A stretch of DNA of 33,998 nt from positions 1 to 33,998 of the forward strand of contig QZIK01000088.1 in NCBI GenBank assembly GCA_003599015.1. The letters run 5' to 3'. Source of the DNA: Desulfobacteraceae bacterium. GTDB lineage: Bacteria; Desulfobacterota; DSM-4660; Desulfatiglandales; Desulfatiglandaceae. A program made the translations under genes and the position numbers. Positions 3,688 through 23,938 of this stretch are shown in pieces. The notes below the pieces were generated by a model. It had not been told where the DNA came from. It saw only the letters and a list, made by a program, of their open reading frames with translations, and searched no databases. Each line of letters begins with the position of its first letter. Within the stretch, counting starts at the first letter, position 1.

Positions 3688-3733
3688 GTTAAGCCCGAGG
3701 CTTTGGCCGGAAGGCCCCCTTTGTGGACTTAAC
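3688..3733. repeat. Inverted repeat between convergent genes, possible weak terminator
   Basis: GTTAAG at 3688-3693 is mirrored by CTTAAC at 3728-3733. Inside lies a small GGCC-GGAA-GGCC hairpin (3705-3716). It sits between the convergent ends of the YhaN-like gene and bamI and overlaps the bamI stop codon. There is no T-tract on either strand, so a termination role is only a guess from position. Confidence 0.25.
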
Positions 3734-4337
3734 CTTCGTGTACAAACGAATGCAGAGAGGAGGCCAGCGCTTCTGTCAAGACATATGCTGCCTGCAGTGC
3801 CGAAGTGGGGCAGAGGGGAAAGCATTCCTTGCAGTTCCAGCACTCCTTGGAGGCTATTTCCGGGATGAAGCTGATCTCCCGTCGTGTCCCTCTGTCAACA
3901 AATCCGACAGCGTTTTTCTTTTTTATCTCGGCACAATATCTCACACACAGGCCGCAGTGGATGCAAAAGGAGGCCTCTTTTTCAAAACGGTCTCTGTCAG
4001 CTCCATATTCCTTGGCAAGTTCCTTTAATTGAGTGGAGTCAGGAGCATGGGCAAGGAGAAGTTCAAGGATCGTTTTTCGGATTCTGTCTATCTTTTCAGA
4101 CCTGGTTCTCACGATCAGGTTAGGTTCCACAGGATAAAGGCAGGCTGCCACGAGCTTTGTCCAGCCGCGGATTTCCGCTTCCACGGTGCAGATTCTGCAG
4201 GCTCCATAAGGTTCCAGTTTTTCGTGGTGACAAAGAGTCGGAATAGCAATCCCAAGCTTTTGGGCGGCCTGCAGAATGGTCATTCCTTCACTGGCTTCAA
4301 ATTTTCTTCCGTCAATCTCTAAAATGATTCCGCTCAT
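3729..4337 (-). CDS. bamI: BamI: NuoG/HndD-like iron-sulfur subunit of class II benzoyl-CoA reductase complex
   Basis: The 202-residue protein resembles the N-terminal part of NuoG and of [FeFe]-hydrogenase subunit HndD. A plant-type [2Fe-2S] domain carries C36, C47, C50 and C66. Two [4Fe-4S] ferredoxin motifs follow: C125-C128-C131-C135 and C166-C169-C172-C176. The catalytic or molybdopterin-like part of full NuoG is absent, so it is an electron wire rather than an enzyme. Its ATG overlaps the end of bamH by 4 nt (ATGA). As last gene of the bam operon, it is expected to take electrons from the BamG-BamH NAD(P)H module and pass them to the Hdr-like subunits in the cytoplasm. The role is assigned by family and gene order. 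Confidence 0.85.
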   Translation of the reverse strand: MSGIILEIDGRKFEASEGMTILQAAQKLGIAIPTLCHHEKLEPYGACRICTVEAEIRGWTKLVAACLYPVEPNLIVRTRSEKIDRIRKTILELLLAHAPDSTQLKELAKEYGADRDRFEKEASFCIHCGLCVRYCAEIKKKNAVGFVDRGTRREISFIPEIASKECWNCKECFPLCPTSALQAAYVLTEALASSLHSFVHEG

Positions 4338-6262
4338 TTCTTTTTACTCTCTCTGACTATAGTTCTGGCTTCTGTAGGGATAGGAGGCGGAACAGGCTCC
4401 CCGGAGATCTTTTTTACCGCACCAAAGCGGTCCGGGCAGGCCTGAAAGCAGGTTCCGCACTTTGTGCATTTGTCCTGGAGAATTACATGGATCTGGTTTT
4501 TACCGCCTTCAATGGCCTTTGAAGGGCATTGCCTGAAGCAGATCATGCAGGCCTTGCACTTTTCAGGATCAATATAAAAGGAAATCAACTCCTTGCAGGA
4601 GAGAGCAGGGCATCTCTTATCCCTGATATGCGCCTCATACTCATCTCTAAAGTATTTGAGTGTACTCAGAAAAGGATTGGGAGCGCTCCTTCCCAGGGCG
4701 CACAGGGATGCCTCTCCGGAAACCTCTGCCAGCTCCTCCAGGAGCTCTATGTCGCCTTCTTTTCCCTTTCCTTTGGTGATATTGGTTAGGATCTTTAGCA
4801 TCTGCCTTATGCCTTCGCGGCAGGGGACACATTTGCCGCACGACTCATCGGTCAAAAAATCCAGAAAATACCTGGCCACATCAACCATGCAGGTATCTTC
4901 ATCCATTATGATCATCCCGCCCGATCCCATCATTGAGCCGGCCTTTGTGAGTTCATCAAAACCGACCTGCAGATCAAGCAGCTCTTCAGGAAGACATCCG
5001 CCCGAGGGACCGCCTGTCTGCACTGCCTTGAACCTCTTTCCTCCTGGAATCCCTCCGCCTATCTTGTAGATCAGGTCCCTCAAGGTCATACCCATGGGAA
5101 CTTCCACAAGGCCGGTGTTGTTTATCTTGCCGACCAGGGAGAAGATCTTTGTGCCTTTGCTTTTTTCGGTTCCGAATTCGGTGAACCAGTCAGCCCCCTT
5201 GTTGATGATGAGCGGTACATTGGCCCATGTCTCAACATTGTTCAAAACGCTGGGTCTGTCCCAGACTCCCTTGACCGCTGTGTGTATGTACTTGGGCCTT
5301 GGCTCTCCCGCCTTGCCTTCCAGCGCGGTCATGAGCGCACTGGATTCTCCGCATACAAAAGCTCCGGATCCCCTGTGCACCTTGATGTTGAAATCAAATC
5401 CGGAACCAAGAATATCTTTACCCAGGAAGCCGTACTCTTCTGCCTGATTAATCGCGATGGTGACATTTTCCACTGCAAGTGGATATTCCTGCCTGACGTA
5501 GATGTATCCCTCGCTTGATCCAACTGCGTAGGCCCCTATGATCAATCCCTCGAGAACCGAATGAGGATTTCCCTCAAGAAGGCTTCTGTCCATGTAAGCC
5601 CCGGGGTCTCCCTCGTCCGCGTTTACGATCACATACTTGATATCGCCCGGCGCATTGCGGGATTCTTCCCACTTCCTTCCTGTCGGAAACCCTCCTCCAC
5701 CCCTTCCTCTCAGGTTGGATTTTTTGACCTCCTCCAGTACCCTGCCGGCAGTCATCTGGAAAAGGGCCTTAGCAAGGGCTGAATAGCCGCCGATCGCCAG
5801 ATAGTCTTCTATGCTCTTGGGGTCAATATTCCCGTTGGAACCGAAAACACGGCGAACCTGATTTTTATAAAATGGTATTTCAGATTCATGCATTATCTTT
5901 TGGTTGGTTTTTGGGTCCGTATAGAGTAATCGCTCTATTACCTTTTTATTCTTTATGGTCTGGGAGATGATTTCAGGGACATCCTGAGGCTGCACCTGAA
6001 GGTAACATATCTCCTCGGGATGAATAACTATTATGGGTCCCCTTTCACAAAATCCATGGCATCCTGTTCTCCTGACATCAACATCTGCGCTCAGCCCCTG
6101 TTTTGAAACCTCTTCTTGGATAATGGCAGCGACTTCGCGGCTGCCCGAGGCATGGCAGGCAGATCCGGAGCAAAGAGTGATACAGGGCTTATTCGGATCT
6201 CTTTTTGATAAGATGATTTTCCTGATTTCTTCCAGTTCAGCAGGTGAATTTATCCGTGCCAT
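4334..6262 (-). CDS. bamH: BamH: NuoF/HndC-like FMN- and NAD(P)-binding iron-sulfur subunit
   Basis: The 642-residue protein has the NuoF layout. An N-terminal thioredoxin-like [2Fe-2S] domain carries C31, C36, C68 and C72. An NAD(H)/FMN domain follows with the glycine-rich GRGGGGFPTGRKWE and NADEGDPGAYMDR motifs, then an SLBB-type stretch, then the N3-type [4Fe-4S] motif ESCGKCVPCREG near residues 472-482. A C-terminal two-cluster ferredoxin domain follows (CKACMICFRQCP near 568, CTKCGTCFQACP near 598), as in bifurcating hydrogenase subunits. It should be the NAD(P)H site of the Bam complex. The ATG at 6262 has AGGGGA upstream and lies 9 nt after bamG. Confidence 0.9.
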   Translation of the reverse strand: MARINSPAELEEIRKIILSKRDPNKPCITLCSGSACHASGSREVAAIIQEEVSKQGLSADVDVRRTGCHGFCERGPIIVIHPEEICYLQVQPQDVPEIISQTIKNKKVIERLLYTDPKTNQKIMHESEIPFYKNQVRRVFGSNGNIDPKSIEDYLAIGGYSALAKALFQMTAGRVLEEVKKSNLRGRGGGGFPTGRKWEESRNAPGDIKYVIVNADEGDPGAYMDRSLLEGNPHSVLEGLIIGAYAVGSSEGYIYVRQEYPLAVENVTIAINQAEEYGFLGKDILGSGFDFNIKVHRGSGAFVCGESSALMTALEGKAGEPRPKYIHTAVKGVWDRPSVLNNVETWANVPLIINKGADWFTEFGTEKSKGTKIFSLVGKINNTGLVEVPMGMTLRDLIYKIGGGIPGGKRFKAVQTGGPSGGCLPEELLDLQVGFDELTKAGSMMGSGGMIIMDEDTCMVDVARYFLDFLTDESCGKCVPCREGIRQMLKILTNITKGKGKEGDIELLEELAEVSGEASLCALGRSAPNPFLSTLKYFRDEYEAHIRDKRCPALSCKELISFYIDPEKCKACMICFRQCPSKAIEGGKNQIHVILQDKCTKCGTCFQACPDRFGAVKKISGEPVPPPIPTEARTIVRESKKK

Positions 6263-6271
6263 GATTTTCCC

Positions 6272-6724
6272 CTAGTCATATTTTTTTAGCACGTCTGCAA
6301 CATTGGCAGGCGCAATCTTTCCATGATGCTTTCCATCCACTTCCATTACCGGCCCCAAGGCGCAGCAACCCAGGCAGTTGACGGTCTGGAGGCTGAACTT
6401 CAAATTAGAGTCCGTCTCTCCAGGTTTGATTCCGGTAAGGTCCTGGACCGTATCTAGTATGCGGGTCGCACCACGGACATGGCAGGCAGTGCCCATGCAG
6501 ATATGGATCTCGTGCCGTCCCTTGGGCACTAGACTAAAGGCTTTGTAAAAGGTAGCTATATGCTGTATTCGGGTTAAGGGAACTTCCAGCCTTTCGCTTA
6601 CTCTTTCAAGTGCCTCCTTGGGAAGCCAGTGATTTTCGCTCTGGATCTCAAGCAATACCTGAATCAAAGAACTGGCTTCGCAGTGATGTTTGTCAATAAT
6701 TTTATCGATTTTTTCGTTATCCAT
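6272..6724 (-). CDS. bamG: BamG: NuoE-like [2Fe-2S] subunit
   Basis: This is a thioredoxin-like [2Fe-2S] protein of about 150 residues, like the 24-kDa subunit of complex I. The four expected cysteines are visible as ICMGTAC (C76, C81) and VNCLGCC (C117, C121). I chose the ATG at 6724, preceded by AGGAAAGGG, over a TTG 36 nt upstream that adds 12 poorly conserved residues. It lies 52 nt after bamF and 9 nt before bamH. It pairs with BamH to move electrons between NAD(P)H and the rest of the complex. Confidence 0.88.
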   Translation of the reverse strand: MDNEKIDKIIDKHHCEASSLIQVLLEIQSENHWLPKEALERVSERLEVPLTRIQHIATFYKAFSLVPKGRHEIHICMGTACHVRGATRILDTVQDLTGIKPGETDSNLKFSLQTVNCLGCCALGPVMEVDGKHHGKIAPANVADVLKKYD

Positions 6725-6776
6725 AGACCCTTTCCTGATCTCATTCCTTTCCTTATCCAATGCCCGTTTTTATAAC

Positions 6777-7544
6777 TCAGGCAGTGGCAAAGCGCTTTTG
6801 ACTTTCATCATACCTGACCAATCCCTGCCTTGAGGAACTGTTGAGATGTCTTGATACTTCAGACTGGTTCAAGCCTAAAGCCCTGGATATCTCTCCGGTT
6901 GAAAGGGGTTTTTCATTAAGAAGCGATATGATCTGGCTTATCGCCAGCTTGTCTATGACCAACTCATTAAACAATCTGTTTACTTCGTCGCTGGCGTAAA
7001 ATTTTTTATAGGCTTCTTCTGATTTGACCGGAGCTCTAAGCCTCTCTCTTTCCACCAGCCTGATATAGGGAACCAGTTTTCTGGCTGCCTCCAGCTTGAA
7101 TTTTAATGTTTTTTTATCGTTACCTTCATCCGTGCCGATCGGTCCCAGTTCCTTTACTTTTCTGGTGAAGGCATTAACGGCTTCAGCCAGACGGATTCCA
7201 TCGCTGGAATTCATGAACTCGATTTTTAATCTCTCAGGGTTGATGCCTATATTTGCCATTATTTTTCTGCATAGAAGCGTGTTGGCCAGGGCATCATAGT
7301 TCCCCTGAGTTACGTAATTGCATTCATTCAGCCTGCAACCGCCTATGAACACTCCATCGTGTCCGTTTGCAAACGCTCTGAGTATGAATTCCAGGTCCAC
7401 CCTGCCGGAGCACATGACGCGAATGAGCCTGATTTCAGTCGGATATTGTAGTCTGGAAACTCCAGCTAGATCAGCGGCGCCGTATGCTCACCAATGGCAT
7501 ACGAAACCTAGAATGTTCGGCTTGAATTTAAGACCTGTACTCAT
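6777..7544 (-). CDS. bamF: BamF: Sec-containing MvhD-like electron-transfer protein with C-terminal winged-helix-like domain
   Basis: Reading through an in-frame TGA at 7488-7490 gives 255 residues starting at ATG 7544, with GAGGTG as ribosome site. The N-terminus GFVCHW-Sec-AYGAADLAG and the following CSGR (C45), GGC (C70) and NEC (C75) match MvhD/VhuD, whose [2Fe-2S] cluster links hydrogenase to HdrA. Here Sec19 stands where relatives have Cys in CxxC. From about residue 195 the protein adds a region with an ArsR-like helix-turn-helix look (LSTGEISRALGLNQSEVSRH, 214-233), which MvhD does not need. Sec in BamF is known from anaerobic benzoate degraders such as Geobacter. Conventional calling would start at 7415 and lose the first 43 residues. 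The normal stop is also TGA (6777-6779). Confidence 0.9.
7449..7468 (-). promoter_or_regulatory. Candidate bacterial SECIS hairpin of bamF
   Basis: Starting 19 nt after the UGA on the minus strand, CUGGA pairs with UCCAG around a GUU loop. Three further pairs (UAG with CUA) lie below a single bulged A. The distance, small apical loop containing GU and coding-region location fit the bacterial SECIS pattern bound by SelB. Folded by eye only. Confidence 0.6.
7488..7490 (-). other. UGA read as selenocysteine, codon 19 of bamF
   Basis: TGA interrupts a frame that matches MvhD without a gap on both sides (FVCHW before, AYGAADLAG after). The position is a conserved Cys of the CxxC pair in the family. 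There is no frame change, which argues against decay. Confidence 0.9.
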
Positions 7545-7593
7545 TAATCATCACCTCTTTTCTCAGAATCCCTTATTTGGACATCAGCGGCTT

Positions 7594-10500
7594 CTAGTTG
7601 CTGAGAGCGTGAGGCATGGCCGCATCAATCTGGCTCAAAAGTTCTTCATCCGTAAAGTGTTTTAATGTTATTGCCCCGGTCGGACATTTTGTGTTGCAGA
7701 GGCCGTCGCCTTTGCAGAGGACGGGATTTACCCATGCCTTTCTGCCTTTTTTCGTATCAATAAACTCTATGGCGCCGTAAGTACATGCGGTTATACATGC
7801 CCCACAGGAGACACAATCGTTTTGTTTTACCTCGCAAATGGCGCCTGAGGCTGTCACCGTATCGCGCGAAAGAAGTGTCAGAACACGGCTTGCGGCTCCA
7901 TAAGCCTGGCTGATTGCCTCGGGAATATGTTTTGGATATTGAGCCATGCCGCACAGATAGACTCCATCTGTTGCAAATTCGACAGGTTTAAGTTTGGCAT
8001 GGGCTTCCTTGAAAAAACCGTCAGGGCTTAAGGTTACCTTGAACAATCCTGCTATGTCGTCGGTCCCGGTGGAGGGAATTACAGCGGCGGAAAGCACAAG
8101 CGTGTCGGCGTCTATTGCGATCCTGTCCCCCAGAATCGGATCAGCGACGTTGATCCTTAAAATACCGGCTCCGCCTTCCTCGACAGACTCCACCTGCGGT
8201 TGGTTTTCAGTGTCGTATCGGATGAACTTTACGTCTTTGTTGGAAGCCTCCCGGTAAAAATCCTCCCTGAAACCGTAGGTTCTCATGTCACGAAAAAGGA
8301 TGTAGATATCCATGTCGGGATTCTTCTCTTTGAGTTTCAAGGAATTTTTGACGGCATGGCCGCAGCATATCCGGGCGCAGTAGTTTCTGTCCTCATTTCT
8401 GCATCCCACGCACTGGATCATAACCAGGGATCTGGAGTTGATGATCCTTTCGTCTTCCTTGATTATCCGCTCCTCCAGTTCAAGCTGCGTCAACACCTTG
8501 TCGTCTTTACCGTAAAGGTATTCTTTGGGACTGTATTCCTCGGCGCCGGTTGCGAGAACCGCTGCGCCGTGTTTGATCTCCGTCACCCCTCTGTCGGATT
8601 TGACCGTAGTTATGAAATTTCCCACATAGCCTGTGACGTCAATTATGGCAGCGTCGTGATAAACGTGTATTGAAGGGTGCCTGTAAATTTCTTTTATAAG
8701 ATTTTTCAAATAAGCCTGAACGTCCATTCCCTCAAGTGTGTAATGGATTTTTCTGGCCGCTCCCCCCAGTTCCTTTTCCTTTTCCACCAGGCAGACATTG
8801 TGTCCCTGCCTGGCTATTGAGAGGGCACAGGTCATGCCTGCTACGCCTCCGCCGACTACCAGCGCCGTCTTGTTTACCGGCAGATCGAACTCCTCTAGCG
8901 GCTCCAAAAAGCAGGCCCTTGCCACAGACATTCGTACTATATCCTTGGCTTTCTCGGTTGCATCTTCCTTTTCCTTTGAATGGACCCAGGAGTCATGTTC
9001 CCTGATATTGGCCATCTCAAAGTAATACTGGTTTATACCAGCCTCCAGAAGCGTATCGCGGAAAAGAGGTTCAAGGGTCCTTGGTGAGCAGGCAGCAACC
9101 ACCACGCGGTTGAGCCCTTTTTCCTTGATTATGTCGGATATTTCCATGGCAGAATTTGTTGCGCATGAAAAAAGCTGTTCCTGGGCATGAACCACATTGG
9201 GAAGGGTCAGGGAATATTCAACCACTGAAGGTACATTTACGACGCTTCCGATGTTGGCCCCGCAGTGGCATACAAATACACCGATACGGGGCTCCTCCTG
9301 GGAGACATCCTTTTCCGGTGGATATGTCTTTTCCTTGCTCAGTTTGCCTCTCCTGTAATTGAGCAGTTCACCGCATTGGGCGCCGGCCCCGCTGGCTGTA
9401 AAAACAGATTCTGGTATATCTGTGGGTCCCTGAAAGTTTCCGCTTGCAAATATGCCGGCTCTGGTGGTTTTTACAGGATTTGAAGGAAACGCCTTGCAGA
9501 ATCCGTGTGAATTGAGCTCGATTCCGAACTTTTCTGCAAGGCTCTTCACATCAGCCGGAGGAGTAAGTCCGACGCTCAATACAACCATCTCGAATTCTTG
9601 TTCAATTACCCCTTCATCGGCATCTGCATATCTAATGAAAATGTTTTTGGTATCGGGGTCTTCCCTCACTATCGAGGCGTAGCTTCTTATGAATCTGACT
9701 CCTGGAAGTTTTTCCGCTCTCTGAAAGTATCGCTCAAAATCCTTTCCATAGGATCTTATATCGTTGTGAAATATGGTACACTCAGCATCAGAGTCATGAT
9801 CTTTGGTTAAAATAACCTGCTTCTGGGTGTATGTGCAGCATACCGCCGAGCAGTAGCTGTTATTGCCAGGGGTAACCCTCCTCGATCCGACGCATTGGAT
9901 CCAGGCGATTTTGCGGGGATGTTTTTTGTCGGAAGCTCGAAGCACCTCTCCCGTATAAGGACCTGTTGAGCTGAGAAGCCTTTCATAGTCCATGCTGGTT
10001 ACCACGTTTTTCATCCTGCCGTATCCGTATTCATCCCTTATCCTGGGATCAAACGGCTCAAGGCCGAGAGAAAGAACTATTGCCCCCACATTCAACTTTA
10101 CCTGTTCAGGCTTTTGGCTGAAATCAATTGCGTTGTTTTTGCAAACTCCCTTGCAGATCATGCATTTCTTTTCTTTGAGGTAGAGGCAGCTTTCATCAAT
10201 GTATGTCACAAGGGGAATTGCCTGAGAAAAGAAAATATGAACGGCTTTATTGTCAGATATCTCCTGGTTAAATTGATCAGGATAAAGAACAGGGCAATAC
10301 TCAACGCACGTCGTACAACCCGTGCATTTTTCCTCTATAATGTACCTTGGCTTTTTTATCAGGGTGACCTTGAAGTCTCCTTCTTCTCCTTCAATGCAGT
10401 CCACTTCAGTATAAGTCAGGACCTCTACGTTCGGATGCCGGCCGACCTCGACCAGTTTGGGCGAGAGTATTCACATGGAGCAGTCGTTTGTAGGGAAAGT

Positions 10501-10686
10501 CTTGTCGAGCTGGGCCATGTGGCCGCCGATGCTGGGGCCTTTCTCGACCAGGTAGACCTTGAACCCTGAGTTGGCAAGGTCAAGAGAGGCCTGGATGCCG
10601 CTGATTCCTCCGCCTACGACCATCACATCGCCGATGTTGCCCTCTGTAAGACTTTTACAAAGCTGTTCGATCTGTTCTTTTTCCAC
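7594..10686 (-). CDS. bamE: BamE: Sec-containing HdrA-like flavoprotein with duplicated FAD modules and multiple [4Fe-4S] clusters
   Basis: Read through the TGA at 10471-10473, the protein has 1030 residues from GTG 10686, with TGAGGG upstream. Order: an FAD Rossmann motif (GGGISG, 25-30); the HdrA signature NDCSM[11 protein letters not shown] with Sec72; a ferredoxin motif with C121, C124, C127, C131; a further Cys set at 167-182; an HdrA-type VFVCHCG segment; a second FAD motif (VVGGGVAGM, about 605-615); and two C-terminal clusters (C958-C968 and C991-C1001). Two HdrA-like halves in one chain suggest a bifurcating flavin unit inside the Bam complex. The gene lies 31 nt after bamD. The GTG at 10404 is not a credible start because it lacks the FAD site. 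Confidence 0.92.
10438..10455 (-). promoter_or_regulatory. Candidate bacterial SECIS hairpin of bamE
   Basis: Starting 15 nt after the UGA, CUGGUCG pairs with CGGCCGG through 7 consecutive pairs (two of them G-U), closed by the tetraloop AGGU. A GGU in the apical loop is also the key feature of the E. coli fdhF SECIS. Folded by eye only. Confidence 0.65.
10471..10473 (-). other. UGA read as selenocysteine, codon 72 of bamE
   Basis: The TGA lies exactly at the Cys/Sec position of the HdrA motif NDCSM-x-ILSPKLVE. Sec at this place is established for HdrA of some methanogens. The flanking frame is intact for hundreds of codons on the downstream side. Confidence 0.92.
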
Positions 10687-10717
10687 TTCGCTGTTCCCTC
10701 ATCAGGTTTTTCGATAC

Positions 10718-11869
10718 CTAAATCAATTCCTCAAAAATTTCCGTGAGCTCTTTAATCTCTATCCTATCGCTAAGATCCAGCGTCAGTCTGCTGTCCTCAA
10801 AGTTGGTGATGCAATATGGACACGAGGTAGCCAACACCTCGGCTCCGGTTCCGATCGCCTGTTCCAATCTGAGGTCGGAAAATCTTTCACCCTTGGGTGT
10901 TTCCATCCAGATGCGACCCCCTCCACCTCCGCAGCAGAGGCTGTCTGCGCGGGAATCAGGCATTTCTTTTAGCTCCAGGCCGGGAGCCTTTTTAAGAAGT
11001 TCTCTTGGTTCATCGTATATGCCGTTATGTCTTCCAAGGTAACAGGGGTCATGATAAGTAACCTTTTTATTATATTCCTTGTTAATTTTAATCTTTCCAT
11101 TATTGATTAGGCTGAGTATATATTGAGAAGTATGAATGACCTCAAAGTGTACCATAAATTCAGGGTACTCATTTTTAAAGGTATGGTAGCAATGGGGAGA
11201 AGAGACAAGCACCTTTTTTACTCCATTGTCAATAAAAGTCTTGATGTTTTCCCTTGCCAGGCGTTTAAACAGTTCCTCGTCACCTGTCTTGCGGATGCTT
11301 TCCCCGCAGCAGTTTTCTTTTGAGCCGAGTATGCCGAAATCTACCCCTGCCAGGTTGAGTATATTGGCGGTGGCCCTGGCTGCCTTCTTTAGTCTCGGAT
11401 CATAGCTGAGATAGCAACCGGGGAAATATAGAATCTCCGTGCCTTCGGTAAATGGTTTGACTGAAATTCCTTCTGCCCAGTTCGCTCTTTTTTTACGCTC
11501 TTCGTTCAAGGGGTTGCCTTCACCCACCAGACTTGCGCTTATGGTGCGGACAGGCTTTACAGGAGGAGGAAACACGCCGTATTCTGTTGCGATCCTGCGA
11601 AGGGCTACTCCTGATTCTATCTGTTTGACGTCTCTGGGGCACTGCTGAGGGCATCGCCCGCAGGTGGTGCAACGCCATATGTCTTCGCTTTCAATCTCGG
11701 TCAAACCGAACGTAGCCTGCCGGACTATCTTGCGCATACTGAATTTTCTGACCCTGTTCCAGGGGCAGACGGCATCGCATAGTCCGCATTGATAGCATCT
11801 TTTGAATGCATCACCACCGTTGGCCTTTATGACATCTATTATCTCTTTGTAAGGGGCTACAGTTTCCAC
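10718..11869 (-). CDS. bamD: BamD: HdrD/GlpC-like iron-sulfur protein with CCG domains
   Basis: The 383-residue protein starts with an HdrC-like two-cluster domain (C25-C28-C31-C35 and C67-C70-C73-C77). A CCG-type HdrB/HdrD region follows, with FPGCYLSYDP, ENCCGES, SSPHCYHTF, HDPCYLGRH and SLCCGGGGG. In heterodisulfide reductases such CCG motifs hold a non-cubane cluster; in Bam complexes this subunit is an electron-transfer partner of BamE. The start is GTG at 11869, with GAGG about 14 nt upstream, so the start is less certain than the identity. It sits 36 nt after bamC and 31 nt before bamE in the operon. Confidence 0.88.
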   Translation of the reverse strand: METVAPYKEIIDVIKANGGDAFKRCYQCGLCDAVCPWNRVRKFSMRKIVRQATFGLTEIESEDIWRCTTCGRCPQQCPRDVKQIESGVALRRIATEYGVFPPPVKPVRTISASLVGEGNPLNEERKKRANWAEGISVKPFTEGTEILYFPGCYLSYDPRLKKAARATANILNLAGVDFGILGSKENCCGESIRKTGDEELFKRLARENIKTFIDNGVKKVLVSSPHCYHTFKNEYPEFMVHFEVIHTSQYILSLINNGKIKINKEYNKKVTYHDPCYLGRHNGIYDEPRELLKKAPGLELKEMPDSRADSLCCGGGGGRIWMETPKGERFSDLRLEQAIGTGAEVLATSCPYCITNFEDSRLTLDLSDRIEIKELTEIFEELI

Positions 11870-11905
11870 AGTCTTTTCTGATCCTCTTCTATGGTAGTTA
11901 AGGTG

Positions 11906-12448
11906 TTAGCCCTTCTTTGACATGCGAGCAACGGTATCCATTACCTTGTCGAGTCCATATTTGTTGACAAGGGTCTCCAACCCCACTTCCATCTCACCCG
12001 GAGGTGCTTCTTCCTCTATATCCTCTTCCCTTTCTTCGTATATAAGGGCGTCATTGAGGCACCACTGAACACACATGGGCTCTTTTAAGGATGGATCGCT
12101 TTCACACATGTCGCACTTGAGGGGGAGGCCTGAGTCCGGTTCCTTAAAGGCATCCCTGGAAGGGCAGGATGCTCTGCAGAAGGCACACTCTTCGTATTCC
12201 TTTCCATCAATCACGTACTTGTCTCTTCCCATGCACTCGGCTGGGGTATACTCGCCCGCGTATACAGGTACATATATGTCTTTTAGCGGATCGCGAACAA
12301 CTCGGATACGGGACCTCGCCGGATTATTGCTGCTGTATTTGGGCGCAGCGTGAAAGGCGGAGCAGATTACCTCGCATGCCCGGCAACCGTTACATTTATC
12401 AACGTCAACTTTAATGGTTTTAACTATTTTCTTTTTTTTCTCACCCAT
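11906..12448 (-). CDS. bamC: BamC: multi-[4Fe-4S] ferredoxin subunit of the BamBC ring-reducing unit
   Basis: This is a Cys-rich protein of about 180 residues related to the electron-transfer subunits of DMSO-reductase-type and AOR-type enzymes. The first motif is CNGCRACEVIC (C19-C29), followed by further Cys groups (EECAFCRASCP, KCDMCES, MCVQWC), enough for about three [4Fe-4S] clusters. The C-terminus is acidic. I chose ATG 12448, which has AAGAGGTGG about 8 nt upstream, rather than a GTG 12 nt before it. The stop of bamB is only 21 nt upstream. In Geobacter BamC forms a tight complex with BamB and supplies its electrons. Confidence 0.9.
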   Translation of the reverse strand: MGEKKKKIVKTIKVDVDKCNGCRACEVICSAFHAAPKYSSNNPARSRIRVVRDPLKDIYVPVYAGEYTPAECMGRDKYVIDGKEYEECAFCRASCPSRDAFKEPDSGLPLKCDMCESDPSLKEPMCVQWCLNDALIYEEREEDIEEEAPPGEMEVGLETLVNKYGLDKVMDTVARMSKKG

Positions 12449-12469
12449 GACGGTTACCACCTCTTAACT

Positions 12470-14476
12470 TTATTTCTTCTCAGTTTCCGCCGAAGTCTCC
12501 TGGGAGGCTGTCTCCTGGTTCTCAGACAAAATGCCCCTCTGCTTAAAGTCTTCGCTTACATAATCCAGCCCCAGTTGATGTAAGGATTCCTTTGTGGGAA
12601 TTCCCTGGTTGTTCCATCCCTTGAATTTGTAATACTCATCAAGGAGCTTGGTCTCAAGCTCGGGAAATCTATTTTTCCAATGGTCCTCGGGTGGCTTTTC
12701 ATCTTTTCTGCGCAGGCCTCTTCTCACGTTAAGAGCTCTAAGAAGAGTTCTGTTCCTGTTTGCTGTTCGCGTTAGGCCTTCTTCATCCATGTCAATCCCT
12801 GTGGCCAGCGAAATCATTGTCGGGAAATTGTGGATATGATATGGAGGCTTGAGCGGAAAGGAGGAAAGCCCGGCGCATAGTCCCAGTGCGTCGTCAATGT
12901 AGTGCATCCGCTCCTGCCAATCAACTATTTCACAGGTGGCTTCAATGGACGGATAAAACGGAATGGATTTTTCTCCCCGCAGTTCCCAGTCCAGGAAATA
13001 CTGCTTGAACCTTTCGTTTGGTACTTGAATCCAGTCCTTGACAAAGGCTTCTCTCTCTTCCCTTGTGGGAAAAGGCGCCTGGGGGAACTGCCCCTCGATC
13101 TGAGTGATGTTTATTTTCTCGCCTGTGCAATACATGAGAAAGTAAATGGGGTTAAGCATTCCCAGCTTGAGAGGAAGCTGCTCGTGCCTTTTTATGTTGT
13201 TGTGTGCGTATTTTTCGGCTCCCTTGCCGATCTTTTCTGCCGCCCAGTGAGTACCGTTTGCCAGCACATCCCCTATGCCTTCGCGCCTGACAATCCTGTC
13301 TAGCAGCCAGAAAAATCTTCCTTCATTTTCGGAAGGCATACCCTGCATGTCCTGATCCGTAAGGATTCCGGCCTCGTAAAGCTCAAGGGCAAAAGCCATA
13401 ACCTGCGGTGTTGAGAATGCATCCACGCCATATTCAGTTGCACGCTGGGCGATTCTCAGTCCGAAATCCAGGTCAGACATGGCTGCCATTGTATAGGTAA
13501 GTTTAGAGAAACACTTCATCATGTAAGTGGGAAGGCCTGGCACTGAAATGGTTCCGCCGCATTTCATGGGACAGTTGTAACAGCTTATAAGCCTCGTCCG
13601 CATGCTTTCCATCGTGTGGGTCCACTGTTTGGCAATTTCCTCGTTCCAGAAATTTTTTCTCCGGTGGCGGGCATTTCCCCAGGCAAAATTCTCCGTGTGC
13701 CATTTCTCGTCGTGAACCGCCATCTCCTGCGGTGATCCAAGCCCAGCAAGTATTGGCATGACGCCCGGAATCGGATTTGAGGCACGATGTTTAATGTATT
13801 TTAAAATATCATTGCAGAAATTTATGAATTCAGCCGGTCTGGCTATGTTCAGGTCCTTTGTGCCTCTGACGGCTATGGCCTTGAGCCCCTTGTCTCCCAT
13901 TACGGCGCCTATGCCGGCCCTGCTGGCGCTAGATCTGCCCTGCTCGATAGAGGCGAAATAAACCCTGTTTTCCCCTGCCAGACCTATTGATGAAACCTGT
14001 GCTTTGGGCTCTTTCAATTCATGTTTTATGATTTCTGAGGTTTCAATGGCGCCTTTACCTCTAAGGTGGGAGGCATCGCGGATCTCCACCTTGTCATTAT
14101 TTATCCACAGATACACCAAATCAGGAGATTTGCCGCGAATGATCACCTTGTCATAGCCTGCGTACTTCAATTCCGGCGCCCAAAATCCTCCCATCATTGA
14201 ATAGGCCATCAGCAGGGTCTGGGGGGAGATGGTGGAAACAATAGTGCGATTACATCCGGGCGCTGGTGTTCCGCATAGAAGACCTGTACCGAATATCAGA
14301 AGATTATCCGGAGAAAACGGTTCAGTCTCAGGAGGAACCCTGTCCCATAGTATCTTGGCATTAGTGCCGAGCCCCCCCAGATGAAGTTCGGTTAACCTTG
14401 GATCGGTTTCCACCCTTTCAATGCTTCCCCGGGACAGATCAACTTCCAGATTATACCCTGTCTCTGCGTATCTCAT
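12470..14476 (-). CDS. bamB: BamB: tungsten-dependent active-site subunit of class II benzoyl-CoA reductase (AOR family)
   Basis: The 668-residue protein belongs to the aldehyde:ferredoxin oxidoreductase family and closely resembles Geobacter metallireducens BamB as I recall it. Key residues fall at the same numbers: E251, E257 and H260 in the active site, C322 as tungsten ligand, and C299, C302, C306 and C534 as [4Fe-4S] ligands. The N-terminal MRYAETGYNLEVDLSRG starts the AOR domain, so ATG 14476 with AAGGGG upstream is well supported. The enzyme reduces the benzoyl-CoA ring to a cyclic diene without ATP hydrolysis in obligate anaerobes. The C-terminal 15 or so residues (QETASQETSAETEKK) are a low-complexity tail. 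It leads the bam operon. A closely related aryl-CoA substrate cannot be excluded. Confidence 0.94.
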   Translation of the reverse strand: MRYAETGYNLEVDLSRGSIERVETDPRLTELHLGGLGTNAKILWDRVPPETEPFSPDNLLIFGTGLLCGTPAPGCNRTIVSTISPQTLLMAYSMMGGFWAPELKYAGYDKVIIRGKSPDLVYLWINNDKVEIRDASHLRGKGAIETSEIIKHELKEPKAQVSSIGLAGENRVYFASIEQGRSSASRAGIGAVMGDKGLKAIAVRGTKDLNIARPAEFINFCNDILKYIKHRASNPIPGVMPILAGLGSPQEMAVHDEKWHTENFAWGNARHRRKNFWNEEIAKQWTHTMESMRTRLISCYNCPMKCGGTISVPGLPTYMMKCFSKLTYTMAAMSDLDFGLRIAQRATEYGVDAFSTPQVMAFALELYEAGILTDQDMQGMPSENEGRFFWLLDRIVRREGIGDVLANGTHWAAEKIGKGAEKYAHNNIKRHEQLPLKLGMLNPIYFLMYCTGEKINITQIEGQFPQAPFPTREEREAFVKDWIQVPNERFKQYFLDWELRGEKSIPFYPSIEATCEIVDWQERMHYIDDALGLCAGLSSFPLKPPYHIHNFPTMISLATGIDMDEEGLTRTANRNRTLLRALNVRRGLRRKDEKPPEDHWKNRFPELETKLLDEYYKFKGWNNQGIPTKESLHQLGLDYVSEDFKQRGILSENQETASQETSAETEKK

Positions 14477-19743: not shown

Positions 19744-20178
19744 ATGAAAAAAAATCATATGACCGGGTACTCGCGGAAACATCCACCGGGTATTGTTGTG
19801 CGAAGAGATGTGGCAGAGGCTGTAGTCCGTGAGGCTTATAGGGGAAAGCTTGACTGTGCAATCGCTTTCAAGATTGCCGATCAGCTTGGGGTTTTGCCTC
19901 AGGATGTGGGGCTTGCTGCAGACCTGAAGGATGTTTCTATCGTTAAATGCCAGCTTGGACTTTATGGATACCGCGATAAGGAGAAAAGGCTTATTCCTGC
20001 AAAATCTGTAAGCTTTACCCTTGAGGATGCCATACGCTCCTGTCTTACAGACGGGAAGCTGCCTTGCAAAAAGGCCTGGGACATTGCTTTTGAAACTGGC
20101 CTGAGGAAGACTGATGTCTCCTCGGCTTGTGAGGCATTGGGCATAAAGATATCCAGGTGTCAGCTGGGAGCTTTCTAA
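19744..20178 (+). CDS. Uncharacterised protein with two copies of a CQLG-type helical domain
   Basis: The 144-residue protein is built of two similar halves. Half one runs from about 24 to 74 and has GKLDC (C38) and KCQLGLY (C69). Half two runs from about 94 to 144 and has GKLPC (C108) and RCQLGAF (C139). The Cys-to-Cys distance is 31 in both and the period is 70 residues. Between them each half has helix-like IADQLGVLPQDVGLAADL or IAFETGLRKTDVSSACEAL, which recalls a helix-turn-helix. I do not recognise a named family. Possible roles are DNA binding or metal/Fe-S binding by the paired Cys. The start has AGAGG upstream. It converges on the selenoprotein gene across a shared terminator. Confidence 0.75.
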   Translation: MKKNHMTGYSRKHPPGIVVRRDVAEAVVREAYRGKLDCAIAFKIADQLGVLPQDVGLAADLKDVSIVKCQLGLYGYRDKEKRLIPAKSVSFTLEDAIRSCLTDGKLPCKKAWDIAFETGLRKTDVSSACEALGIKISRCQLGAF

Positions 20179-20182
20179 TATA

Positions 20183-20221
20183 ATTCCCGGCCTTCAGGCC
20201 GGGAATGCAATAATTTTTTAT
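20183..20221 (+). terminator. Rho-independent terminator
   Basis: A perfect 10-bp stem, ATTCCCGGCC with GGCCGGGAAT, closes on the loop TTCA at 20183-20206. A T-run follows at 20214-20219. It starts 4 nt after the CQLG gene stop. The opposite strand has only a weak T-rich tail, so it may also end the convergent selenoprotein gene less efficiently. Confidence 0.88.
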
Positions 20222-20224
20222 TGA

Positions 20225-20539
20225 TCAGCAACTGCAAGAGCTGCCACAGCCGCCGCCTGCCTTCATGCTGGAACCTATTGAAAAACCGGATCCAAAAGGG
20301 GATTCAACGTAGTCAACCTTCACAGGTTTAACCTGTTCCAGCAACACCTTATCTATTACATAAGTGATTCCCCTGTCATCAAAGATCTCGTCGTTCTCTT
20401 TTGACTCATCCAGAGCCATTCCCAGGGAGGGACCCGATCACCCACCCTGCGAGAGCATTATACGAATGGGCGGAATTATGGGTCGGTCCTTTAAGAAATC
20501 CTTAATCATATCGCTTGCTTTTTGTGTTACCTCAAACAT
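20225..20539 (-). CDS. HesB/IscA-like selenoprotein
   Basis: Reading through TGA 20438-20440 gives 104 residues from ATG 20539, which has AAGGAG upstream. The sequence PPIRIMLSQGG-Sec-SGPSLGMALDE matches the IscA/HesB fold at the first conserved Cys (GGCSG in relatives), with Sec34 in its place. The C-terminal metal-binding Cys are present as GGGCGSSCSC. HesB-like selenoproteins are a known bacterial selenoprotein class; canonical members carry Fe-S clusters or iron for delivery. Without recoding only a 64-residue stub from 20419 would be called. The gene ends with a second TGA (20225-20227), which cannot be Sec because the terminator follows. It has its own leader of about 110-120 nt. Confidence 0.9.
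20402..20418 (-). promoter_or_regulatory. Candidate bacterial SECIS hairpin of the HesB-like gene
   Basis: Starting 19 nt after the UGA, UGGCUC pairs with GAGUCA (6 pairs, one G-U) around the loop UGGAU. Distance equals that in bamF. The loop has GG but not the GGU of fdhF, so this is the weakest of the three. An alternative hairpin using UCCC/GGGA lies nearer to the UGA. Confidence 0.45.
20438..20440 (-). other. UGA read as selenocysteine, codon 34 of the HesB-like gene
   Basis: TGA stands at the first conserved Cys of the IscA family (GGxSG). Both flanks remain in frame and family-like, and the ribosome site is on the upstream half only. Confidence 0.9.
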
Positions 20540-20665
20540 GTCTTTCTCCTTATCTTTTTAACTCAGGCTAAAAAGCCCTCCTCTTTACGGCATAATCCTA
20601 AACCTTATTGTTCTGGCTTAAAGCTCAAACCTGGTTCCACCACCATGCCGATTCCATAGCGTGAA

Positions 20666-20724: not shown

Positions 20725-21351
20725 TCAGGATGGTTCTTCCGCCATTCTTAGGTCAAGCCATTTGATTATCTTTTCAGCCTCCCCCCTGAGTTCAGCCATT
20801 GCCCTTCCCCTGTGGCTTACATGGTTTTTCTCCTGTGTTGTCATCTGGGCAAAGGTCTTACCAAGTGGCGGATAATAAAAAAGAGGATCGTAGCCGAAAC
20901 CGTTGGAACCCAACTGGCTGTCAAGAACCAGACCTTCGCACCTGCCTTCGTAGATTAAGGCCGGTCCCCTGGGTACTGCAATGGCGAGAACACAAATAAA
21001 TGCAGCCTCCCTGTCCTTGCGGTTTTTTAGAGCATGAAGGAGTTTTAAATTGTTCTCCTCGTCCGTCGCAGATTCTCCTGCATATCTTGCAGAGTGCACG
21101 CCAGGCATGCCTCCCAGGGACTTGACCATTATACCCGAGTCGTCTGCCAGTGCCGGAAACCCAAGTATCCTGGCGGTAAACCTGGCCTTTATAACAGCGT
21201 TGTCTTCAAATGTCTCCCCATCTTCAATAACATGAGGTATAGGGCCAAAATCATCCAGACCACATACGGTAATTTCCATACCCGAAAAAAGCTCTGAGAA
21301 TTCAAGGAGTTTACCTTTGTTTCTGGTGGCGATAACAAGCGTTCTTTTCAT
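20725..21351 (-). CDS. rdgB: RdgB/HAM1-type non-canonical purine NTP pyrophosphatase
   Basis: From ATG 21351 the protein has 208 residues, close to the usual 195-205. Typical motifs are LVIATRNKGKLLEF at the start, ALADDSGIMVKSLGG, PGVHSARYAGE, GSNGFGYDPLFYYP and SHRGRA. It hydrolyses ITP, dITP and XTP to monophosphates and so keeps deaminated purines out of nucleic acids. The frame is open 27 codons further upstream, but that part overlaps the kinase gene and is not conserved. It lies 52 nt after the kinase stop on the same strand, so the two may be co-transcribed; no functional link is evident. Confidence 0.93.
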   Translation of the reverse strand: MKRTLVIATRNKGKLLEFSELFSGMEITVCGLDDFGPIPHVIEDGETFEDNAVIKARFTARILGFPALADDSGIMVKSLGGMPGVHSARYAGESATDEENNLKLLHALKNRKDREAAFICVLAIAVPRGPALIYEGRCEGLVLDSQLGSNGFGYDPLFYYPPLGKTFAQMTTQEKNHVSHRGRAMAELRGEAEKIIKWLDLRMAEEPS

Positions 21352-21403
21352 AGTTAATATGCCTTGTATATCGGTTGTCAATCCATGAAAGATATAGTCG
21401 CTA

Positions 21404-23938
21404 TCATTCTTCTGCCTTAGTATGTATTTCATCTTTTTGGCTTATGAAAGTATTCGTTGAATCGCCGGCTGCGTCGCCGCCAAGAAGCACTGATTCAATG
21501 GTTGCCCTGAGGTTGTCAAGAGAGTAAGGTTTTGGTATGGCCGCAAGAAATCCATAGCGGGCAAAATCAGTAATAACCGGATCAGTGTCGTATCCGCTTG
21601 TGACAACAGCCCTTATCTTCGGGTCCAGCTCCCGAAGCCTTTTCATGGCTTCCTTTCCACCCATGCCTCCCCTGACAGTAAGATCCAGGAGGACAAGGTC
21701 AAAGGGCCTTTCTTCTTCATATGCCTTCATATAAAGATCAATCGCCTCTGCTCCATCTCGGGCCAGGACCGCTGTGTGTCCGAACTTTTCCAAAATCTCT
21801 TTGGTAAGAATTCTTACGCTTTCCTCATCGTCCATTAATAGTATGCGGGCGCTTCCTGGAGGGTCCTGGCAGGGACTGGGCTTCAATCCTATTGCCGACT
21901 CCATCTTCGGCCTTGCAGGCAGATATACATAAACACAAGTGCCTGATCCATCTTTGGACTCTACATGGATATACCCTCCGTGTCTTTTTATTATGTTGTA
22001 GGCTGTCGTAAGACCAAGTCCCATGCCCTTTTGGACTCCTCTCTCCTTTGTAGAAAAATACGGATCAAAGAGTCTGGGCAGGTGCTCTTTTGGTATGCCA
22101 GGACCATTGTCATGTATGGAAATAATTATGTATTTGCCATCCCCTGCCTTAAAAGACGATGAGGAAGACATTTCTCTTCTCATTTCCTTATTTTTAATGG
22201 AAATCTCTATTTCTCCCGCTCCATTCAGGGCCTCTCTGGCATTCACAATTATGTTGGTCAAGGCTTGGCGTATCTGTGACTCGTCGTATGATGCAATCCA
22301 CAGGGAATCATCAATATCTAATATAAATTGAACGGCAGATCCGGCAAGGGCAAGGTTTGCTGAATGGATAACTGTTTCTGAAATTACTCCAGGTCTTTTT
22401 ACAGGGGTTCCTCCACCGGAAAAGGATATGAATTTCTTAGTGAGATCCTTTGCACTAGTACAAGCCTTCTCTGCTTCAATCAGATTAAAGTGTCCGCGGG
22501 AATTTTTTTGCAATTCCATTCGAGCTATATTGATATTGCCCAATATAACGGTCAGGAGATTGTTGAAATCATGGGCGATTCCACCTGCAAGCAGACCCAG
22601 GGACTCCAGCTTTTGGGTCCTGATCAGTTCGTTTTCTGCGGCCTTTTTCTCGGTTATTTCCATAAAATTGCCAAGAAGGGCAGGTTTTCCCTCATAGGTT
22701 ATGAGGCCGGTGCTTACCATGACGAATCTTTCCCTGCCTGCCTTGTCTCTCACTCGCATTTCATAGGGCGTGAACCTTTTTGTCTTGAGCATGTTCACAA
22801 GCTCTTCCGCCATCTTCTCTTTATCTTCTGAAATGACCAGATTGAGGGAGTTCATGCCTGTAAGTTCCTCGGTGGTGTAGCCGGTCATCTTTGAAAAGAC
22901 GGGGTTTACCAGCTTGAAGATCTTGTCCTGGACAATGAACAACCCCACCTCGGCATTGTTGAACAGATCCCTGAATAGTCTCTCTGCCTGCCTGAGGGCA
23001 GTAATATCTGTTATGGATGCTACGCTTTTACCGGTATTGCCGATGGTAGAAACCCTGACATAGGCGTCCATGACCCGTCCAAACTTGTCTATGAAGCTGA
23101 ATTCGTATCCATCGGGAGCCTCCTTGTCATTAGTCCTGCGGGTTATATGATAGCCTTTCATCCTCTCAAGATCTTCAGGCGCCACGAACTGGGTCCATTT
23201 AAGCCTTCCCTCAATAGCCTCTCCGGAACACCCGCTCATTCTTTGAAACTCTGAGTTGGCCATGGATATGGTCATATCTTCTTCTATTATGACTGTTGCG
23301 GTTCCTGTGTTTTCAAAGACGGTTCTGTATTTCTGTTCGCTCTCACGAATAGCTGCTTCTGCCAGACACTTTGCCGTAACATCCCGGACGGTTCCCCTGA
23401 ATCCCGTAGGCCGGCCATCCTGATCTCTTATGAGGGATATCGAGAGCTCAAGATATGCCTTGTTTCCGTCCTGTTTGGTTATGCGACACTCAAAACCTTT
23501 GACTGCCTTGCCCGTGGAATAGACCTGATTGAAGACCCGATAAGTCTTTTCTGCATCCCCCGGGTCCATGTACTGACGGTTATTTATCCCTTCAAGTTCC
23601 TCCTTTGGTCGCCCGGCAATATGGCACATGGCCATATTGCAGAAGGTCATGTTTCCCGCGAGATCGGTTTCATAATATCCGTCTTCTATGGTTTCAAGAA
23701 TGTTGCGGTATTTCTCTTCGCTTTCTCTCAGGGCCTTTTCGGCGGAGACCTTTTCATCAACCTCCCTTTTAAGTCTTGCATTCGCGGCAACCAGGGCAGC
23801 AGTTCGCTCCTCAATTCTTATTTCAAAATCCCTCTGAACCTTCTCAAGTGCCTCTTCAGCCTGGAACCTCCTGAGCGCCTCCTGCTCTAGAAGGTCGAGC
23901 CTCTCTCTAAGTTCCTCGTATGTTGGTTTCGAACCCAT
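21404..23938 (-). CDS. Cytoplasmic hybrid histidine kinase with three PAS domains and a C-terminal receiver
   Basis: The 844-residue protein starts with a coiled coil (about 5-70). Three PAS domains follow (about 72-190, 200-312 and 318-430). The HisKA domain has the phospho-accepting H456 in GGIAHDFNNLL. The ATPase domain shows the N box (NIIVNAREAL), DNGPGIP and GMGLGL. A receiver domain begins at LLMDDEESVR with the phospho-acceptor D752 (LLDLTVRGG). No membrane segment is seen, so it senses an internal signal, perhaps redox or a ligand via PAS. No response regulator with an output domain is adjacent, so the target is unknown. The start ATG 23938 faces the M48 protease gene. Confidence 0.92.
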   Translation of the reverse strand: MGSKPTYEELRERLDLLEQEALRRFQAEEALEKVQRDFEIRIEERTAALVAANARLKREVDEKVSAEKALRESEEKYRNILETIEDGYYETDLAGNMTFCNMAMCHIAGRPKEELEGINNRQYMDPGDAEKTYRVFNQVYSTGKAVKGFECRITKQDGNKAYLELSISLIRDQDGRPTGFRGTVRDVTAKCLAEAAIRESEQKYRTVFENTGTATVIIEEDMTISMANSEFQRMSGCSGEAIEGRLKWTQFVAPEDLERMKGYHITRRTNDKEAPDGYEFSFIDKFGRVMDAYVRVSTIGNTGKSVASITDITALRQAERLFRDLFNNAEVGLFIVQDKIFKLVNPVFSKMTGYTTEELTGMNSLNLVISEDKEKMAEELVNMLKTKRFTPYEMRVRDKAGRERFVMVSTGLITYEGKPALLGNFMEITEKKAAENELIRTQKLESLGLLAGGIAHDFNNLLTVILGNINIARMELQKNSRGHFNLIEAEKACTSAKDLTKKFISFSGGGTPVKRPGVISETVIHSANLALAGSAVQFILDIDDSLWIASYDESQIRQALTNIIVNAREALNGAGEIEISIKNKEMRREMSSSSSFKAGDGKYIIISIHDNGPGIPKEHLPRLFDPYFSTKERGVQKGMGLGLTTAYNIIKRHGGYIHVESKDGSGTCVYVYLPARPKMESAIGLKPSPCQDPPGSARILLMDDEESVRILTKEILEKFGHTAVLARDGAEAIDLYMKAYEEERPFDLVLLDLTVRGGMGGKEAMKRLRELDPKIRAVVTSGYDTDPVITDFARYGFLAAIPKPYSLDNLRATIESVLLGGDAAGDSTNTFISQKDEIHTKAEE

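Follow-up and report, generated by a model that had tools for sequence, protein, structure and literature searches.

A HesB/IscA-fold selenoprotein with a re-spaced cysteine tail in a Desulfobacteraceae bacterium

Introduction

HesB-like selenoproteins have been a class since about 2006 without an assigned function. They were listed in Syntrophobacter, Syntrophus, Desulfovibrio and Geobacter, and only two events of Sec-to-Cys replacement were reported for the family at that time (PMC1794560). One archaeal member, in Methanococcus maripaludis, was identified by mutagenesis together with 75Se labelling; a strain of this species mutated in a HesB-like selenoprotein remained viable and, according to an unpublished observation, still fixed nitrogen (PMC11097638). 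More recently, a review of 2026 described the family under the model TIGR01911 HesB_rel_seleno with its UxGP motif (PMC13188914).

Here, a gene of this class is described in a window of 33,998 nucleotides, the whole stretch of DNA that was analysed, and compared with its relatives. The comparison supplies testable handles on function: the protein is the sole A-type protein detected in near-complete relatives, Sec-to-Cys copies have arisen repeatedly, and lone Cys-type copies occur in hdrA/flpD operons.

The gene and its signals

The gene and its signals at either end were located as follows, the strand having been absent from the earlier note.

20225..20539, minus strand: hesB-type selenoprotein gene, 104 residues plus stop (NF038090, PF01521 and translation)
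20546..20551, minus strand: ribosome-binding site AAGGAG, 6 bases 5' of the hesB ATG (from the sequence)
20438..20440, minus strand: in-frame UGA, residue 34, read as Sec and aligned with IscA Cys35, the first conserved Cys
20183..20206, no strand: 10-bp inverted repeat ATTCCCGGCC/GGCCGGGAAT, between convergent genes (from the fold)

Translation starts at an ATG at 20539 on the minus strand and, with TGA read as Sec, yields MFEVTQKASDMIKDFLKDRPIIPPIRIMLSQGGUSGPSLGMALDESKENDEIFDDRGITYVIDKVLLEQVKPVKVDYVESPFGSGFSIGSSMKAGGGCGSSCSC. The terminal stop at 20227-20225 is likewise a TGA. That any of the three codons can close the gene in homologues (TAA, TGA and TAG in 38, 34 and 13 of the Sec genes tallied) marks it as an ordinary stop, and a second Sec inserted by readthrough at this point was therefore rejected. 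The inverted repeat is probably a terminator common to both convergent genes; a consensus terminator scan of the region between them made no call despite the strength of the repeat. Rfam searches of the whole window at gathering thresholds returned zero matches.

The protein is almost certainly a HesB/IscA-fold selenoprotein of the NF038090 family. It matches NF038090 IscA_HesB_Se with 134.3 bits (E=1.5e-39, cut-off 85), residues 1-100 covering positions 1-101 of the 101 in the model, and Pfam PF01521 at 2e-7. The earlier note had proposed a HesB/IscA-like protein from a known selenoprotein class in which Sec takes the place of the first conserved Cys, with family-like flanks in frame on both sides of the TGA. 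This is borne out by the alignment of UGA34 with IscA Cys35, by the matches to NF038090 and PF01521, in which both flanks of the codon are aligned, and by the HesB-like selenoproteins already described (PMC1794560).

Decoding of UGA34 as selenocysteine

On the evidence of the sequences compared, UGA34 is decoded as Sec: a conserved SECIS element lies downstream, and selC and SelB are encoded in the genome. Four lines of evidence, independent of one another, point this way: the decoding genes, the shared UGA column, the hairpin and its loss from Cys homologues. The tRNA-Sec gene selC scored 72.7 bits with a covariance model and was called tRNA-SeC with anticodon tca by ARAGORN, while SelB scored 398 bits across its whole profile. 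Co-occurrence of HesB with SelB is nevertheless uninformative, since SelB is near-universal in the phylum (371 of 394 genomes at E<=1e-50, 355 of them over the family cut-off).

Members of NF038090 over the cut-off were found in 43 of 61 genomes from the same genus, family and order, nearly all of them with exactly one in-frame TGA. UGA34 lies in a GGUxGP loop, corresponding to the GG(U/C)xGP loop of the family, and the UGA occupies the same column in 44/44 Sec homologues of the order or nearby, with protein conservation on either side. The same codon was present in 40 further Sec homologues from the rest of the phylum, and the more than 80 homologues that share it come almost all from different genomes.

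The downstream hairpin was placed as follows.

20402..20418, minus strand: SECIS hairpin UGGCUC-UGGAU-GAGUCA, loop 20408-20412 (from pairing, slid pairings, a codon null and compensatory changes)

With the U of UGA as +1, it spans +23 to +39. The hairpin, UGGCUC-UGGAU-GAGYCA in the order-level alignment, begins 19 bases past the codon, and every one of the order-level and phylum-wide Sec homologues keeps a SECIS hairpin 20-37 bases downstream of UGA. All five inner pairs are formed in 41/44 order-level homologues, whereas in 1000 synonymous-codon shuffles 1.4 sequences did so on average and 6 at most. In the true register, 97% of the SECIS cells are paired, as against 17-50% in slid pairings. 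Codons are frozen exactly at the hairpin (A42 GCT 42/42, L43 CTG 44/44, D44 GAT 41/43, E45 GAG 42/44), while flanking synonymous codons vary freely in the order-level alignment. Moreover, the C26-G36 pair is changed on both sides to U26-A36 in 8/40 distant homologues, and one change from G-C to U-A was found at pair 24-38. The hairpin has been lost from homologues with Cys, among them the Cys copies that lie in tandem with Sec genes. As in bacterial selenoproteins, the element is thus a downstream hairpin with a G in its apical loop and under selection, and the SECIS check called for in the earlier note came out in favour of the selenoprotein.

Reading UGA34 as a true stop, within a pseudogene, a sequencing error or two short ORFs, has the raw stop codon alone in its favour and is extremely improbable. 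It is opposed by more than 80 homologues carrying the same UGA, by conservation of the protein downstream of it, by the compensatory SECIS changes and by the presence of selC and SelB. The UGA column together with the SECIS null test rules out a sequencing error, a pseudogene and a split ORF; the TGA is no base-call error, and neither this nor a SECIS fold lacking conservation, the two outcomes that the earlier note had held against its proposal, was found.

Fold, Sec position and cysteine tail

An AlphaFold model was built from a 56-sequence alignment. Its pLDDT is about 90 in the core (residues 1-90) and about 70 in the Sec loop, and falls below 50 in residues 95-104; the tail is predicted to be disordered, so that the model is silent on it. 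The predicted structure has a HesB/IscA fold, with best Foldseek matches in the PDB to 1x0g (IscA with [2Fe-2S]), E. coli IscA (1r94/1s98) and SufA (2d2a) at E values of 1e-6 to 7e-6. DsrR was matched as well. DsrR is not known to have the cluster-binding Cys or to bind clusters; as it has the same fold, cluster binding does not follow from the fold by itself.

Sec34 aligns with the Cys of the IscA GCSG motif, the first ligand, and conservation is tight in the IscA-like loop and core. Where Sec is lost in aligned homologues, it is always replaced by Cys.

20228..20248, minus strand: Cys tail C98-GSS-C102-S-C104 (from conservation; predicted disordered)

The three-ligand set of A-type carriers is not retained: Cys35 corresponds to Sec, Cys99 to G96 and Cys101 to C98. 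Relative to IscA, the C-x-C pair of the tail has G96 in place of its first Cys and keeps C98 as its second, while C102 and C104 are gained. Contrary to the earlier note, it is not longer than that of IscA; 6 residues follow the conserved Cys in both, and the spacing of Cys alone differs. In order-level homologues, C98 is conserved in 42/44, C102 in 40/43 and C104 in 43/43. Tails vary in other lineages, with Cys-rich repeats at one extreme and one lone Cys at the other. Two loci (L125, L128) encode Sec-type HesB with one tail Cys (FTGTCSI), which limits models with three tail ligands. In sum, the protein departs from the canonical A-type ligand set yet keeps the fold and the key position.

Distribution and exchange of Sec for Cys

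When the general A-type model TIGR00049 was run over the same 61 relatives, no A-type proteins other than the NF038090 loci were found, conventional IscA, SufA and ErpA being undetected. A PF01521 search of the bacterium's own genome gave no candidates and missed even the known hesB gene, which makes it uninformative. The family is absent from 6/30 near-complete relatives, and the protein is therefore not an essential carrier.

About 11 changes between Sec and Cys are required on a maximum-likelihood tree of 83 proteins, at least 7 of them being forced by well-supported branches. Cys copies nest in the Sec clades of their own family, often in tandem with the Sec gene (f17, f18, f42) or, in f2, as a second copy at a different place. 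Tandem pairs of Sec-type and Cys-type hesB were observed at L094, L095, L096, L102, L108-L111, L160-L164, L170 and L171, with a spacing of 65-345 bases in L094, L095, L096, L102 and L108-L111. Such pairs apparently arose independently in at least three families.

Lone Cys-type genes were found in hdrA/flpD operons at 11/23 loci, all on the same strand, against 3/69 Sec loci (Fisher p=6e-6), the loci having been picked from best matches rather than sampled at random. Counted by family, with families assigned by hand from genome tables, the link is seen in 6/12 lone Cys against 3/21 Sec (p=0.04). It is accordingly a lead rather than proof. The 11 lone Cys genes (L152, L154, L156, L158, L159, L166, L168, L173, L178, L180, L183) share the strand of flpD and mostly of hdrA too, and often lie directly 3' of these genes. 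The gene order is hdrA-flpD-hesB in L156 and L159, and flpD, a CCG-type gene and hesB in L183.

Genomic neighbourhood

Neighbours were compared across 60 related loci, each taken with flanks of at most 6 kb per side. The two genes adjoining hesB in the window are the following.

19744..20178, plus strand: convergent neighbour gene, 144 aa, matching no Pfam or NCBIfam family; adjoins hesB in 12 related loci
20725..21432, minus strand: rdgB/HAM1 (XTP/dITP diphosphatase), upstream neighbour; adjoins hesB in 14 related loci

The recurrent neighbours over the 60 loci were rdgB (14), the convergent gene (12), yggS (9) and a ttcA-like gene (7). The 144-aa convergent protein consists of two similar halves with a CQLG motif in each.

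Elsewhere in the window, a run of genes on the minus strand (3729-14476) encodes AFOR-type, ferredoxin-type, CCG, HdrA-like, FlpD-like, NuoE-, NuoF- and NuoG-like proteins and resembles the bamBCDEFGHI class II benzoyl-CoA reductase cluster. Two more selenoproteins are encoded in this run, FlpD-like (CHWU, TGA 7490-7488) and HdrA-like (TNDCSMU, TGA 10473-10471), hesB being the third of the window, as counted before. The bam cluster is real, but its position does not explain hesB. The earlier note had linked the protein's role to the nearby bam genes and an Rrf2 regulator; none of the bamB-, bamC-, CCG- or Rrf2-like genes of the window recurs near hesB in the 60 related loci, and a role by way of the bam cluster or Rrf2 was rejected. 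A part in cluster supply, which the note had also suggested, may still apply and draws indirect support from the Cys-type paralogues in hdrA/flpD operons.

Possible functions

Taken as a whole, the protein is best explained as a Sec-ligated, A-type-like carrier of Fe-S clusters or metal that perhaps serves Hdr/Flp-type modules, a reading given about an even chance. Sec34 in the GGUxGP loop would stand where A-type carriers have their first cluster-ligating Cys, and the remaining ligands may come from the mobile Cys tail (C98, C102, C104), so that a transient Fe-S cluster or iron could be bound through a selenolate ligand. More speculatively, the cluster might then be delivered to, or repaired in, Hdr/Flp-type electron-transfer proteins. 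Judged from sequence comparison, the ligand or carrier role by itself is plausible, if slightly short of evenly balanced. The second canonical ligand (IscA Cys99) is absent and the tail Cys vary widely, down to the clade with a single one, which both speak against it. Further points against are the 6/30 near-complete relatives without the family and the viability of the M. maripaludis mutant (PMC11097638). Hdr/Flp-type proteins were proposed as clients because lone Cys-type paralogues are repeatedly found in hdrA/flpD operons; they are doubtful in this role, the Sec gene being flanked by housekeeping genes rather than by Hdr. A more far-reaching reading is unlikely, though conceivable: HesB selenoproteins would serve specifically to mature or repair electron-bifurcating modules of the Hdr/Flp type, which are partly Sec-containing, by means of a selenolate-bound Fe-S cluster, and would repeatedly have given rise to Cys tandem partners that act as selenium-independent back-ups or hetero-oligomer partners.

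A redox enzyme is rather unlikely, although several observations would fit it. Sec34 and a tail Cys could form a selenenyl-sulfide, and the protein could be a thiol-disulfide or peroxide reductase built on the IscA fold: Cys is the only substitute for Sec, the many Cys of the tail lie on a mobile segment, the protein no longer has the canonical C-x-C ligand pair, and redox roles are presumed for most uncharacterised selenoproteins (PMC13188914). However, there is neither a CxxU or UxxC motif nor a redox fold, Sec sits exactly at the metal-ligand position of IscA, and the Cys paralogues occur in operons for Fe-S proteins. Less probable still is a buffer or detoxifier in which Sec34 and the Cys tail bind soft metals or metalloids, e.g. 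copper, mercury, arsenic or selenium compounds. Metal-ligand or metalloid-resistance roles have been proposed for other selenoproteins (PMC13188914), and a flexible Cys-rich tail of variable length would suit them, but resistance genes are not among the recurrent neighbours in the 60 loci, and the tight conservation of the IscA-like loop and core argues against such a role. Should Sec indeed be a ligand in a cluster carrier, this would add a new kind of use for selenium, away from the active sites of enzymes.

Comparison with known systems

The protein does not differ substantively from NF038090 IscA_HesB_Se, with which it shares the full-length match, Sec in GGUxGP and the Cys tail. Its score of 53.5 bits with TIGR01911 HesB_rel_seleno is below the cut-off of 66.35, which places it in the NF038090 branch rather than strictly in TIGR01911. 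The class is identical to the HesB-like selenoproteins of Zhang et al. 2006 (PMC1794560); the gene is a routine member of a class described since then, and its identification is not new.

With the A-type carriers IscA, SufA and ErpA, it has in common the fold (1x0g, 1r94, 2d2a) and the position of the first ligand. It differs from them by Sec in place of Cys35, the absence of Cys99 and the extra C102 and C104, and it scores far under the equivalog cut-offs (44 vs 150 bits for IscA). Finally, the protein resembles DsrR of Allochromatium vinosum (2k4z) in having an IscA-like fold outside the canonical carriers, but it retains Sec and three tail Cys.
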